Shown here: positions 9,044 to 31,953 of the stretch, in pieces
How the letters are laid out: every line of letters starts with the position of its first letter
Numbering within the stretch: position 1 is the first letter of the stretch
From: Candidatus Poribacteria bacterium
GTDB lineage: Bacteria > Poribacteria > DTPJ01 > WJIO01
Assembly (NCBI GenBank): GCA_014730235.1
Contig: WJIO01000080.1
Span: forward strand, 1 to 36,025
Length of the DNA: 36,025 bases
Reading direction: 5' to 3'
Program-made: the position numbers and the translations under genes
The notes under the pieces: generated by a model
Databases searched by the model: none
What the model was told of the DNA's origin: nothing
Seen by the model: only the letters and a program-made list of their open reading frames with translations

Positions 9044-9110
9044 TTTAAAAGGGTGAGGTTTGATTGTTTAAGAAAAATATTTGTTAGTGATTTTCAATAA
9101 TGATTTTGAA

Positions 9111-9179
9111 ATTTTGGGACGTGCTGAAAATTCCCCTTGTCCCCTTATTAAGGAGGGGATAATGGGCTTTGCCCATTAA
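9111..9179. repeat. Family B hairpin repeat
   Basis: A well-kept copy: GGGACGTGCT, CCCCTTGTCCCCTTATTAAG with a complementary GGAGGGG, then ATGGGC-TTT-GCCCAT (9162-9176), a perfect 6-bp stem with a 3-base loop. It lies in the 191-bp gap between the receiver/SPOR gene and the Wza-like gene. Confidence 0.6.
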
Positions 9180-9202
9180 AAAGATGAGAGGATTTTCAAT
9201 TA

Positions 9203-26083: not shown

Positions 26084-26110
26084 TTTTTAGTAATTTTCAA
26101 TAGGGATTTT

Positions 26111-26177
26111 GAAGTTTTAAAACGCACTAAAAATACCCCTCGCCCCCTTATTAAGGGGAAAATGGGCTTTGCCCATA
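26111..26177. repeat. Family B hairpin repeat in the leader of the second URO-D-like gene
   Basis: CCCCCTTATTAAGGGG is followed by ATGGGC-TTT-GCCCAT (26162-26176), a perfect 6-bp stem. The preceding TTTTCAATAGGGATTTTGAA (from 26093) matches the block before the 9111 copy. It ends 20 bp before the start codon at 26197 and would be transcribed with the gene if a promoter lies upstream. Confidence 0.6.
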
Positions 26178-27274: not shown

Positions 27275-27310
27275 ACATTCGCCTTATGTTAAATAACATA
27301 AGGCGAATGT
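27275..27310. terminator. Perfect 16-bp hairpin after the URO-D-like gene
   Basis: ACATTCGCCTTATGTT (27275-27290) and its exact complement AACATAAGGCGAATGT (27295-27310) flank a 4-base loop AAAT. It begins 7 bp after the stop codon. A T-run lies on the 5' side only, so termination on the plus strand would not follow the classical pattern. Confidence 0.5.
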
Positions 27311-27341
27311 GAATACATACAAAACAGTGGAGGTGGATATT

Positions 27342-27473
27342 ATGTTCCCGGCAAGATTTACAGAAAGAGTGCGTATGGTAATTAATTACGCAAATGATGA
27401 AGCCATCAAAATTAAACATAACCGACTAGATACTGAGCATCTGCTCCTGGGTTTGATTCGGGAAGGTGAATAA
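27342..27473 (+). CDS. 43-residue ClpC N-domain-like microprotein or truncated clpC
   Basis: A short open frame starts at ATG 27342 with a strong TGGAGGTGG site. It encodes MFPARFTERVRMVINYANDE and ends TEHLLLGLIREGE before TAA at 27471. This closely follows the first repeat of the Clp N-terminal domain of ClpC/ClpA (consensus MFxRFTERARxV...GTEHILLGLIREGEG). The second N-domain repeat and the AAA modules are absent, and no continuation is visible in any frame downstream. It is either a relic of a truncated clpC or a small protein that could mimic the ClpC adaptor-binding surface. It is 31 bp upstream of the DUF5916 gene start. Confidence 0.65.
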   Translation: MFPARFTERVRMVINYANDEAIKIKHNRLDTEHLLLGLIREGE

Positions 27474-29949: not shown

Positions 29950-30779
29950 CAAATAAAAACCTGCTGAAAACCTATGGAGACATAACTGGCGTAAATATTT
30001 TCCCTATTACTGCTTTGGGTATAAGATATTATGATAAGAACTACGGCAGAATATTGGGCTTAATACCAGAAGATAGCAGGATTCTTGAGGTAGGTCCTGG
30101 CGGGGCTTCCTTTACACAATATTTGCTTTTTAAAGGTTTTAAGAATATAACTGTCTGTGAGATTTCAGACTCCAGCGTTGAGGCTTTGAAAGGCTTCTTT
30201 AAATCCCATGTTCGGGTGGTGCATTGGGATGCTGTGGAATATGTAAAACAGGCTAAAGCAAGATTTGATTTTATATACGCAGGTCAGTTCATAGAGCATT
30301 TATCCAGAGATAGGTTTCTGGAATTTTTAAAGATATGCTGTAACGTTTTATCTCCCGGTGGACACCTGGTATTAGAGACTATAAACTGCGCAAATATAAC
30401 CTATGGTCTTTATTTGATGTATTGCGATTATACTCATATGATGGGATTTACTCCTAGAAGCTTGAGTCAATTTGTTATGGCTGTGGGTGATTTTTCTGAT
30501 ATTTCCCTTTTAAATATTTATCCCCTGAGATTAAAAGATGCTATACAATCTATAAAATACAGAAGGAGAATTTCATCAGAACTTTCAACAAAAATAAATA
30601 CCCAATCGCCTTCACAAATTTCAACCGGCCGGTTTTTTAAGCTGCTGAAAATCCCTGGTAAAAGTATAAAGATAAGGATTTCAACTCTATTATCAAGGGT
30701 TATGCTTGGTAATCATGAATTCGATGGCATTAAGATATTCACTCCTTTTTTCGCATTAGTGGCTAGGAAATCTCTTTAA
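29946..30779 (+). CDS. Class I SAM-dependent methyltransferase
   Basis: The 277-residue Rossmann-type methyltransferase has motif I ILEVGPGGASFTQYL, motif II VCEISDSSVEAL with the acidic ribose-binding Glu, FDFIYAGQFIEHL around the active site, and LSPGGHLVLETIN. This pattern resembles UbiE/Coq5-like and polysaccharide-linked methyltransferases. The start ATG overlaps the DUF5916 stop (ATGA), so the two are translationally coupled. The substrate is unknown. The stop codon overlaps the stop of the convergent sigma-region-2 gene. Confidence 0.88.
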   Translation: MTNKNLLKTYGDITGVNIFPITALGIRYYDKNYGRILGLIPEDSRILEVGPGGASFTQYLLFKGFKNITVCEISDSSVEALKGFFKSHVRVVHWDAVEYVKQAKARFDFIYAGQFIEHLSRDRFLEFLKICCNVLSPGGHLVLETINCANITYGLYLMYCDYTHMMGFTPRSLSQFVMAVGDFSDISLLNIYPLRLKDAIQSIKYRRRISSELSTKINTQSPSQISTGRFFKLLKIPGKSIKIRISTLLSRVMLGNHEFDGIKIFTPFFALVARKSL

Positions 30780-31159
30780 TCATCATTGTCAATCTCACCA
30801 ATATCCAGTGGAGAGTGATTTTTTGGTTCATATATATTACCTTCGGTATCGAGTTGGAATCCTGAGCTTTCCATAGACTCGTAGGAAATGTGTTTTACAA
30901 GATTACAGTATGAATAATTTACCGCTTTTGATTTCAGATAGTCTATAGCTTTATTCTTTGCAGCCCGGTAGTAATATGCGTCTTCCCTTCCTGGTTCCAT
31001 GTTCAATAATGCTATGTGCATTTCATTCCTTAATTCTTCTGCAGTAAATGGATCTCCAAAGCTAAGTTTTCGGGCTATGGCCTGTATACCTTTGTCGAAG
31101 TCCATTGTATTCATTATTTTTTTAATTAATGATTCTTGGCGCGGTGATCCTTTCTTCAT
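30776..31159 (-). CDS. Small sigma-70 region 2-like protein
   Basis: This 127-residue protein has a central part (about 38-85) that matches sigma-70 region 2: FTAEELRNEMHIALLNMEPG followed by DAYYYRAAKNKAIDYLKSK, the usual (L)xxE-x(F/I)-ALL...A(Y)xYRxAxNxAIDxLR pattern that binds core polymerase and the -10 element. There is no region 4 in this protein; the acidic C-terminus (GEIDNDD) is unrelated. The region 4 half appears to be encoded separately at 31409-31654, upstream on the same strand. The start ATG follows AAAGGA. Confidence 0.7.
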   Translation of the reverse strand: MKKGSPRQESLIKKIMNTMDFDKGIQAIARKLSFGDPFTAEELRNEMHIALLNMEPGREDAYYYRAAKNKAIDYLKSKAVNYSYCNLVKHISYESMESSGFQLDTEGNIYEPKNHSPLDIGEIDNDD

Positions 31160-31183
31160 TACGTTTTCCTTTCTTTTCTGATG

Positions 31184-31236
31184 AGATTATTCCCCGGCTC
31201 AGAATGGTAATACCATTCTGAGCCGGGGAATAATCT
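31184..31236. repeat. Perfect 53-bp palindrome
   Basis: Two exact 26-bp arms (31184-31209 and 31211-31236) flank one base at 31210. The outer part reads AGATTATTCCCCGGCTCAG. It lies 25 bp upstream of the region-2-like start codon and 7 bp from the target duplication of the neighbouring MITE. No T-run follows on either strand, so it is not a standard terminator. Confidence 0.85.
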
Positions 31237-31250
31237 AAAATTCTTAAGAC

Positions 31251-31386
31251 CTATACTTTCACACTTTTTAAAATACATAGTATTTATGCAATTGTAGGGA
31301 CACGACGTGCCGTGTTCCTACAAGCCGAAAACCCTTATGAAATCTGTATTTACCGTTTTGATATATAAAAAGGTGTGAAAGTATAG
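31251..31386. mobile_element. 136-bp MITE-like element with 7-bp target duplication
   Basis: Terminal inverted repeats are CTATACTTTCACACTTTTTA (31251-31270) and its complement with one extra base (31366-31386). Immediately outside, TTAAGAC occurs on both sides (31244-31250 and 31387-31393), a perfect 7-bp direct repeat. Inside is a hairpin based on TTGTAGGGACACG / CGTGTTCCTACAA (31292-31323). It is non-coding and inserted between the two sigma-like genes. Confidence 0.75.
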
Positions 31387-31408
31387 TTAAGACATCTGTT
31401 AAATTTGC

Positions 31409-31654
31409 TTAATTTTGATCAAGCCTGTTTCTTAGGATTTTTATAATAGAGTTAATTCTTTTGGATATCATAGACCTGGAAACATCGCAGACTGCTGCTA
31501 TTTCCCTTTGTTTATGACCCATGAGATGTAGGACTAGAATTTTTTTGTCCCTTGGTTTTAGTCCGTCTACGGCCATTTTGAGGTCTAAGTCCTGAAATCG
31601 ATAGGAGTTGATATCGTAATTGGATATTGGTTCAACAAAAGATTGTTCCTGCAT
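31409..31654 (-). CDS. Small sigma-70 region 4-like HTH protein
   Basis: The 81-residue protein is almost entirely a sigma region 4 helix-turn-helix: DLDLKMAVDGLKPRDKKILV, then HLMGHKQREIAAVCDVSRSM and ISKRINSIIKILRNRL. Region 4 contacts the -35 element. There is no region 2. It is transcribed first, and the region-2-like gene follows 249 bp later on the same strand. This order and split recall the Bacillus subtilis SigO/RsoA two-part sigma factor. AAGGAG precedes the ATG. It could alternatively be a stand-alone LuxR/sigma-4-type regulator. Confidence 0.75.
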   Translation of the reverse strand: MQEQSFVEPISNYDINSYRFQDLDLKMAVDGLKPRDKKILVLHLMGHKQREIAAVCDVSRSMISKRINSIIKILRNRLDQN

Positions 31655-31688: not shown

Positions 31689-31713
31689 TTCATGAATTAA
31701 TTGTATCATGAAT
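31689..31713. promoter_or_regulatory. Candidate operator: two TCATGAA boxes over the -10
   Basis: TTCATGAA (31689-31696, a perfect palindrome) and ATCATGAAT (31705-31713) flank and overlap the -10 box of the region-4-like gene. Such repeated palindromes at a promoter often bind a repressor or autoregulator. Confidence 0.35.
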
Positions 31714-31727
31714 AAATACTTTGTCAA
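31700..31727 (-). promoter_or_regulatory. Sigma-70 promoter for the split sigma genes
   Basis: On the minus strand, TTGACA (31727-31722) and TACAAT (31705-31700) are separated by 16 bases. This gives a start near 31693, about 40 nt before the start codon. Confidence 0.6.
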
Positions 31728-31794: not shown

Positions 31795-31822
31795 TTGACA
31801 CAGGATGAGTTGTGCGTATAAT
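31795..31822 (+). promoter_or_regulatory. Strong sigma-70 promoter for the nitrilase gene
   Basis: TTGACA (31795-31800) and TATAAT (31817-31822) are both perfect and 16 bases apart. The start would be near 31829, leaving a leader of about 125 nt that contains a family B hairpin. It diverges from the promoter at 31700-31727. Confidence 0.72.
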
Positions 31823-31836
31823 CAGAAATGATTATC

Positions 31837-31905
31837 AATTTTCAGCCGGATTAAAAATCCCCTTCGGCCCTTTACAAGGGGGGAAATAATGGGCTTTGCT
31901 CATTA
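31837..31905. repeat. Family B hairpin repeat in the nitrilase leader
   Basis: AAAAATCCCCTTCGGCCC with a complementary AAGGGGGG is followed by ATGGGC-TTT-GCTCAT. It lies wholly between the predicted transcription start and the ribosome-binding site AAAGGAG (31941-31947). Confidence 0.55.
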
Positions 31906-31953
31906 GGAGAAAGTTGAAAAGATTTATTGAAAACCACTTGAAAGGAGTAAAAC

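Follow-up and report, generated by a model that had tools for sequence, protein, structure and literature searches.

Two adjacent genes in a poribacterial genome probably encode a real and apparently undescribed two-piece phage sigma factor, not a coincidental pairing. They lie on one strand of the window, a 36,025-nt stretch of Candidatus Poribacteria DNA (contig WJIO01000080.1), with the gene for an 81-residue protein first and that for a 127-residue protein second (Table 1). The 81-residue protein is almost only the helix-turn-helix (HTH) of sigma region 4, and its partner carries a region 2 pattern. We read the pair as a genuine split sigma because an environmental phage has both genes adjacent and in the order of the window. 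To our knowledge split sigmas are rare: the clear case is SigO-RsoA, with looser phage versions in SPO1 gp33-gp34 and T4 gp55/gp33. The initial annotation had proposed a composite sigma factor of this bacterial lineage; our analysis supports the split sigma and assigns it to a phage type rather than to an invention of the host lineage.

Table 1. Features of the putative split-sigma locus in the window, with a phage-like cluster found on contig C413 of the window genome.
Feature	Position	Strand	Basis or detail
Gene for 127-aa sigma region 2 protein	30776..31159	-	Sigma70_r2 E=2.2e-4; region 2 ~ residues 26-81
Perfect palindrome, 26-nt arms, 53 nt, 1 nt between arms	31184..31236	-	just upstream of region-2 gene
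MITE-like element between the two genes	31251..31386	.	terminal inverted repeats
Gene for 81-aa sigma region 4 protein	31409..31654	-	Sigma70_r4_2 E=1.9e-7; HTH ~ residues 25-79
Operator-like pseudo-palindrome TTTATTCATGATACAATTAATTCATGAA overlapping -10 box	31689..31716	-	alignment score 23 vs shuffle maximum 17
Promoter TTGACA-16-TACAAT before region-4 gene	31700..31727	-	consensus scan, 11/12 matches
C413 phage structural cluster	L051:10733-20000 + L052:1-5516		

Sequence profiles assign one sigma region to each protein. The 81-residue protein matches the Pfam family Sigma70_r4_2 at 31.1 bits against a cut-off of 25.7, with no Pfam match to region 2. The sole Pfam match of the 127-residue protein is Sigma70_r2 (21.4 bits, residues 26-78), 2.6 bits short of the cut-off of 24. 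SPO1 gp34, a phage sigma essential for late genes (PMC9429907), likewise scores below this cut-off, at 23.8 bits, so a score just under it is not unusual for such a protein. Aligned with hhalign to nine full-length ECF-type sigma factors, the region-2 family covers the region 2 part only (score 37.4, against at most 26.0 in 150 column shuffles) and the region-4 family the region 4 part only (48.4, against at most 18.9 in 150 shuffles). The two covered parts do not overlap, in keeping with the earlier observation that neither protein carries the other half. A lone region 2 is peculiar to this locus: the other 35 of the 36 Sigma70_r2 matches in the window genome fall in open frames of at least 181 residues. 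NCBIfam sigma models match the region-2 protein weakly, and a profile search of the PDB returned no match for it. Structure predictions were too poor for a fold search, with a mean pLDDT of 46.5 for region 2 from a two-row alignment and 58.5 for the region-4 protein alone. The same genome holds another small region-4-type protein (contig C343, L080:913-1308; 131 aa), with no region 2 in its open frame and a sequence unlike that of the window protein.

A phage encodes homologues of both halves side by side, which excludes chance as the origin of the pairing. A degenerate-codon scan of IMG/VR for AEELxxEMxIxxL retrieved two records, L106 (41.9 kb) and L107 (97 kb), that represent one phage (99.95% alike over 7.9 kb). 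It carries a 72-aa region-4 ORF (L107:6280-6498; 54% identity to the window protein, E=3e-24) followed by a 114-aa region-2 ORF (L107:6482-6826; 58% identity, E=2e-43), the two overlapping by 17 bp. The region-4-first order common to window and phage is most simply ancestral. Synonymous differences are saturated in both halves (pS 0.92-0.95 in the region-2 gene, 0.99 in the region-4 gene) and nonsynonymous ones are fewer (pN 0.25-0.34 and 0.34), the signature of purifying selection and of two proteins long kept by it. On the 97-kb record the pair sits at ~22.0-22.6 kb, 6.4 kb upstream of the small terminase gene TerS (~28.9 kb), and TerS, the large terminase gene TerL, portal and head-morphogenesis genes all lie on the strand of the pair. 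Neither phage member matched a PHROG at E 0.01. Close to the pair, this record (L107/L111) further encodes an RNA ligase, a nicotinamide phosphoribosyltransferase-like protein and a protein with a weak protein-kinase match.

The third member of the region-2 family stands directly before terminase genes. Among 84 genomes of the phylum, the region-2 gene occurs outside the window genome only in G001, the other genome of the order, where it lies directly upstream of a TerS-like gene and TerL. Two relatives thus place the module upstream of terminase, G001 with region 2 and the phage with the pair. The G001 protein is 48-50% identical to that of the window, and the C-terminal tail of the 127-aa protein (NYSY...DTEGNxYEP) is conserved. 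All three members match Sigma70_r2 and no second Pfam family, at scores that do not reach curated cut-offs. G001 has no adjacent or detectable region-4-only orthologue; its assembly, of 900 contigs, is 88% complete, and the contig with the region-2 gene spans 3.4 kb. Both checks set by the initial annotation speak for a split sigma, within limits: region 2 is recognised from sequence profiles, and adjacency is conserved in the distant phage, with no detectable partner for region 2 in G001.

Wider searches extended the family no further than these three loci. Because the IMG/VR scan relied on a single exact pattern, these relatives count as a minimum. Automatic searches of IMG/VR and of the genome contigs with either protein or a two-row profile returned no true homologue; three genome-contig matches proved to be full-length sigmas. 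The tail pattern DTEGxxYEP retrieved mostly clamp-loader-like ATPases, and a TerS pattern search retrieved nothing related. Upstream of related terminases, whether in the phylum or in IMG/VR, no such pair was visible. Among 50,697 phage and 72,556 plasmid records the region-2 gene had no homologue and the region-4 gene weak matches only. A limited-term literature search found no account of such a phage pair.

We consider it likely that the two proteins act jointly, giving RNA polymerase a single specificity, presumably for late genes. Gene pairing, overlap in the phage and complementary domains lead us to infer this joint action. The region-4 protein would bind the beta flap and the -35 box, while the region-2 protein would dock on the beta-prime clamp helices, reading and opening the -10 box; together they would confer one promoter specificity. 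A single operon lying before the late genes would encode both, and their most likely targets would be the packaging and capsid genes of the phage. A pair of this kind would be a natural AND gate, and it is small enough for co-expression and testing.

The window pair has its own promoter and operator-like boxes, as first annotated. The G001 operon is likewise preceded by a promoter, TTGACA-17-TATAAT, which lies inside a pseudo-palindrome common to both genomes. The best ungapped alignment of the two sites scores above all shuffles (mean 11.4, sd 1.5; maximum in Table 1). With three mismatches allowed, the motif occurs in the window genome only before the pair and in G001 only before the region-2/TerS/TerL genes, and the reversed motif, used as a control, occurs in neither; since the motif was derived from the two sites themselves, only its absence elsewhere counts as independent. 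We infer that the housekeeping polymerase would transcribe the operon, subject to some regulator. In the phage, a terminator-like inverted repeat with eight T, read by eye at L107:6225-6265, stands just before the region-4 gene, and expression there may depend on read-through. This repeat was absent from the output of an automatic scan whose loop limit was shorter. On the plus strand of the window, a perfect consensus promoter (TTGACA-16-TATAAT, 31795-31822) faces a nitrilase-like gene, divergent from the promoter of the region-4 gene.

In the window the module sits by itself on a bacterial chromosome, downstream of a promoter of housekeeping type. We saw no phage genes around it; the genes next to it encode, going by their translations, a methyltransferase-like and a nitrilase-like protein. 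Its G+C content (36%) is below that of the host genes of the window (43%, sd 3) and like that of phage genes on contig C413 of the same genome (36-39%), in keeping with a phage origin. The MITE-like element between the two genes is flanked by 7-bp duplications, TTAAGAC (31244-31250 and 31387-31393), and has ~30 further copies in the genome, many partial; without it the genes would lie ~106 bp apart. The palindrome upstream of the region-2 gene is predicted to fold as RNA at -46.6 kcal/mol (z -9.9), has no T tract after it and has no second copy in the genome. It is possibly an attenuator, or an uncoupling hairpin between the two genes. Weak matches there to Rfam families of eukaryotic microRNAs are artefacts of its perfect palindromy. 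Both open frames, the promoter and the operator are intact, and the copy may be either a leftover or a module kept by the host. A second dispersed repeat family, present at ~30 places in the genome, occupies 31827-31950, just upstream of the nitrilase-like gene, and recurs in the window at 9099-9195 and 26105-26176.

The likeliest target of the window pair, if it is still in use, would be a phage-like cluster on a separate contig, C413. Over ~15 kb, this compact cluster encodes TerL, portal, scaffold, capsid and endolysin, with TerS on the other strand. Its terminase shares 64% identity with the one in G001; the C413 capsid protein finds no match there. The cluster is flanked by host-like genes and contains no integrase or replication gene that we could recognise. 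It may be gene-transfer-agent-like or a prophage remnant. That the host has captured a split late sigma from a phage, as a chromosomal two-key switch for a gene-transfer-agent-like system on C413, is an idea to which we give little credence. A 28-bp match between the window (31909-31936) and C413 belongs to a dispersed repeat and does not mark a regulatory site common to both. The same assembly includes a 4.3-kb phage-like contig, C94 (L087), possibly a stray, on which a small open frame resembling the DnaA C-terminal domain lies between a DnaD-like and a NinG-like gene (these two named from translations).

Several other readings of the pair can be weighed against a split sigma. The two proteins might be independent: region 2 would be a late factor of the gp55 kind, able to work without region 4, and the region-4 protein would share its operon by chance and either be an ordinary DNA-binding regulator or regulate the activity of host sigmas. 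T4 sets a precedent, since gp55 supports basal late transcription without sigma region 4 and gp33 is structurally no region 4 (PMC7892883), and the solitary region 2 before TerS-TerL in G001 is the strongest counter-observation to a composite sigma. We nonetheless regard independence as unlikely, given that phage and window keep both halves together in the same order, with the genes overlapping in the phage, and that both halves are under purifying selection. It is less plausible still, and in our view very improbable, that the 127-aa protein has no sigma region 2 and is an unrelated phage protein in which an AKNKAIDYL-like motif arose by chance. Its scores below curated cut-offs, the empty PDB profile search and the want of a confident structure model would fit such a protein, but Sigma70_r2 matches across all three members with no competing Pfam family, weak NCBIfam sigma matches, an hhalign score above every shuffle, the similar score of SPO1 gp34 and a neighbouring gene for region 4 all point to a sigma region.

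Two origins for the split itself are set aside by gene order and by the phage. Had a frameshift or stop codon cut one sigma gene in two, region 2 would come first; here region 4 stands first, and we reject that origin. A mobile element is not the cause either, because the phage genes are also separate with nothing between them. The module could instead be real in phages and the window copy an inactive relic of a lost prophage, an explanation we find rather doubtful. The want of phage genes nearby, the MITE and perfect hairpin between the genes, and the low, phage-like G+C would all be expected of a relic; set against them are two intact open frames, an intact promoter and operator common to G001, and a related terminase cluster that persists in the window genome.

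The putative split sigma resembles known systems in logic, with differences from each. SigO-RsoA of Bacillus subtilis, which we compare by description, likewise divides region 4 and region 2 between two proteins, each required for promoter activation (PMC8103513, PMC10028694), and the operon name yvrI-yvrHa puts its region-4 gene first. The size relation is reversed: SigO is 22.5 kDa and RsoA 9.0 kDa (PMC10141391), whereas here the region-4 proteins are small (81 and 72 aa) and the region-2 proteins larger (127 and 114 aa). Unlike SigO-RsoA the pair is phage-linked, and no NCBIfam model named SigO or RsoA matched the window proteins. SPO1 gp33 and gp34, both used in late transcription (PMC3601020), come like the phage pair from two small overlapping phage genes. 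SPO1 gp33 belongs to its own Pfam family, PF25742 (Phage_Gene33; 1.9e-38), with no HTH match, and PF25742 matches neither window protein; gp34 (197 aa) has region 2 plus a weak region-4 match, and the SPO1 proteins show no pairwise sequence similarity to the window pair. T4 late transcription combines region-2-type gp55 with a separate flap protein, gp33 (PMC7892883, PMC2988020), which is unrelated in structure to sigma region 4 and does not bind DNA by itself, whereas the window partner is by sequence a region-4 HTH.

Single-protein sigmas and phage late-gene activators differ in domain composition or in position. ECF (group IV) sigmas hold regions 2 and 4 in one polypeptide, a feature absent from the window pair, as does Xpf, the sigma of prophage PBSX (PMC10141391). 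Xpf and the RinA/Ltr late regulators are small phage regulators that are encoded before terminase genes and activate late genes (RinA: PMC13123087). A RinA- or Xpf-like place just before terminase is found in G001; the phage pair lies further upstream, and the window pair has no such place. The gene-transfer-agent activator GafA/GafYZ is encoded apart from the phage-like structural cluster, has a tentative sigma resemblance and in some lineages is divided between two genes (PMC9638019, PMC11150451). The N-terminal domain of GafA is DnaA-like; neither window protein gave a Pfam or NCBIfam match to such a domain, and what they carry are clean sigma regions.

A phage family with halves barely larger than region 4 and region 2 would show the minimum size of such halves, and an overlapping-gene phage pair upstream of terminase would suggest that split sigmas arose more than once. 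Elsewhere in the window, a 54-aa ORF (27309-27473) lies just before an 822-aa ORF, and its end looks like what we take to be a fragment of a Clp N-terminal domain.
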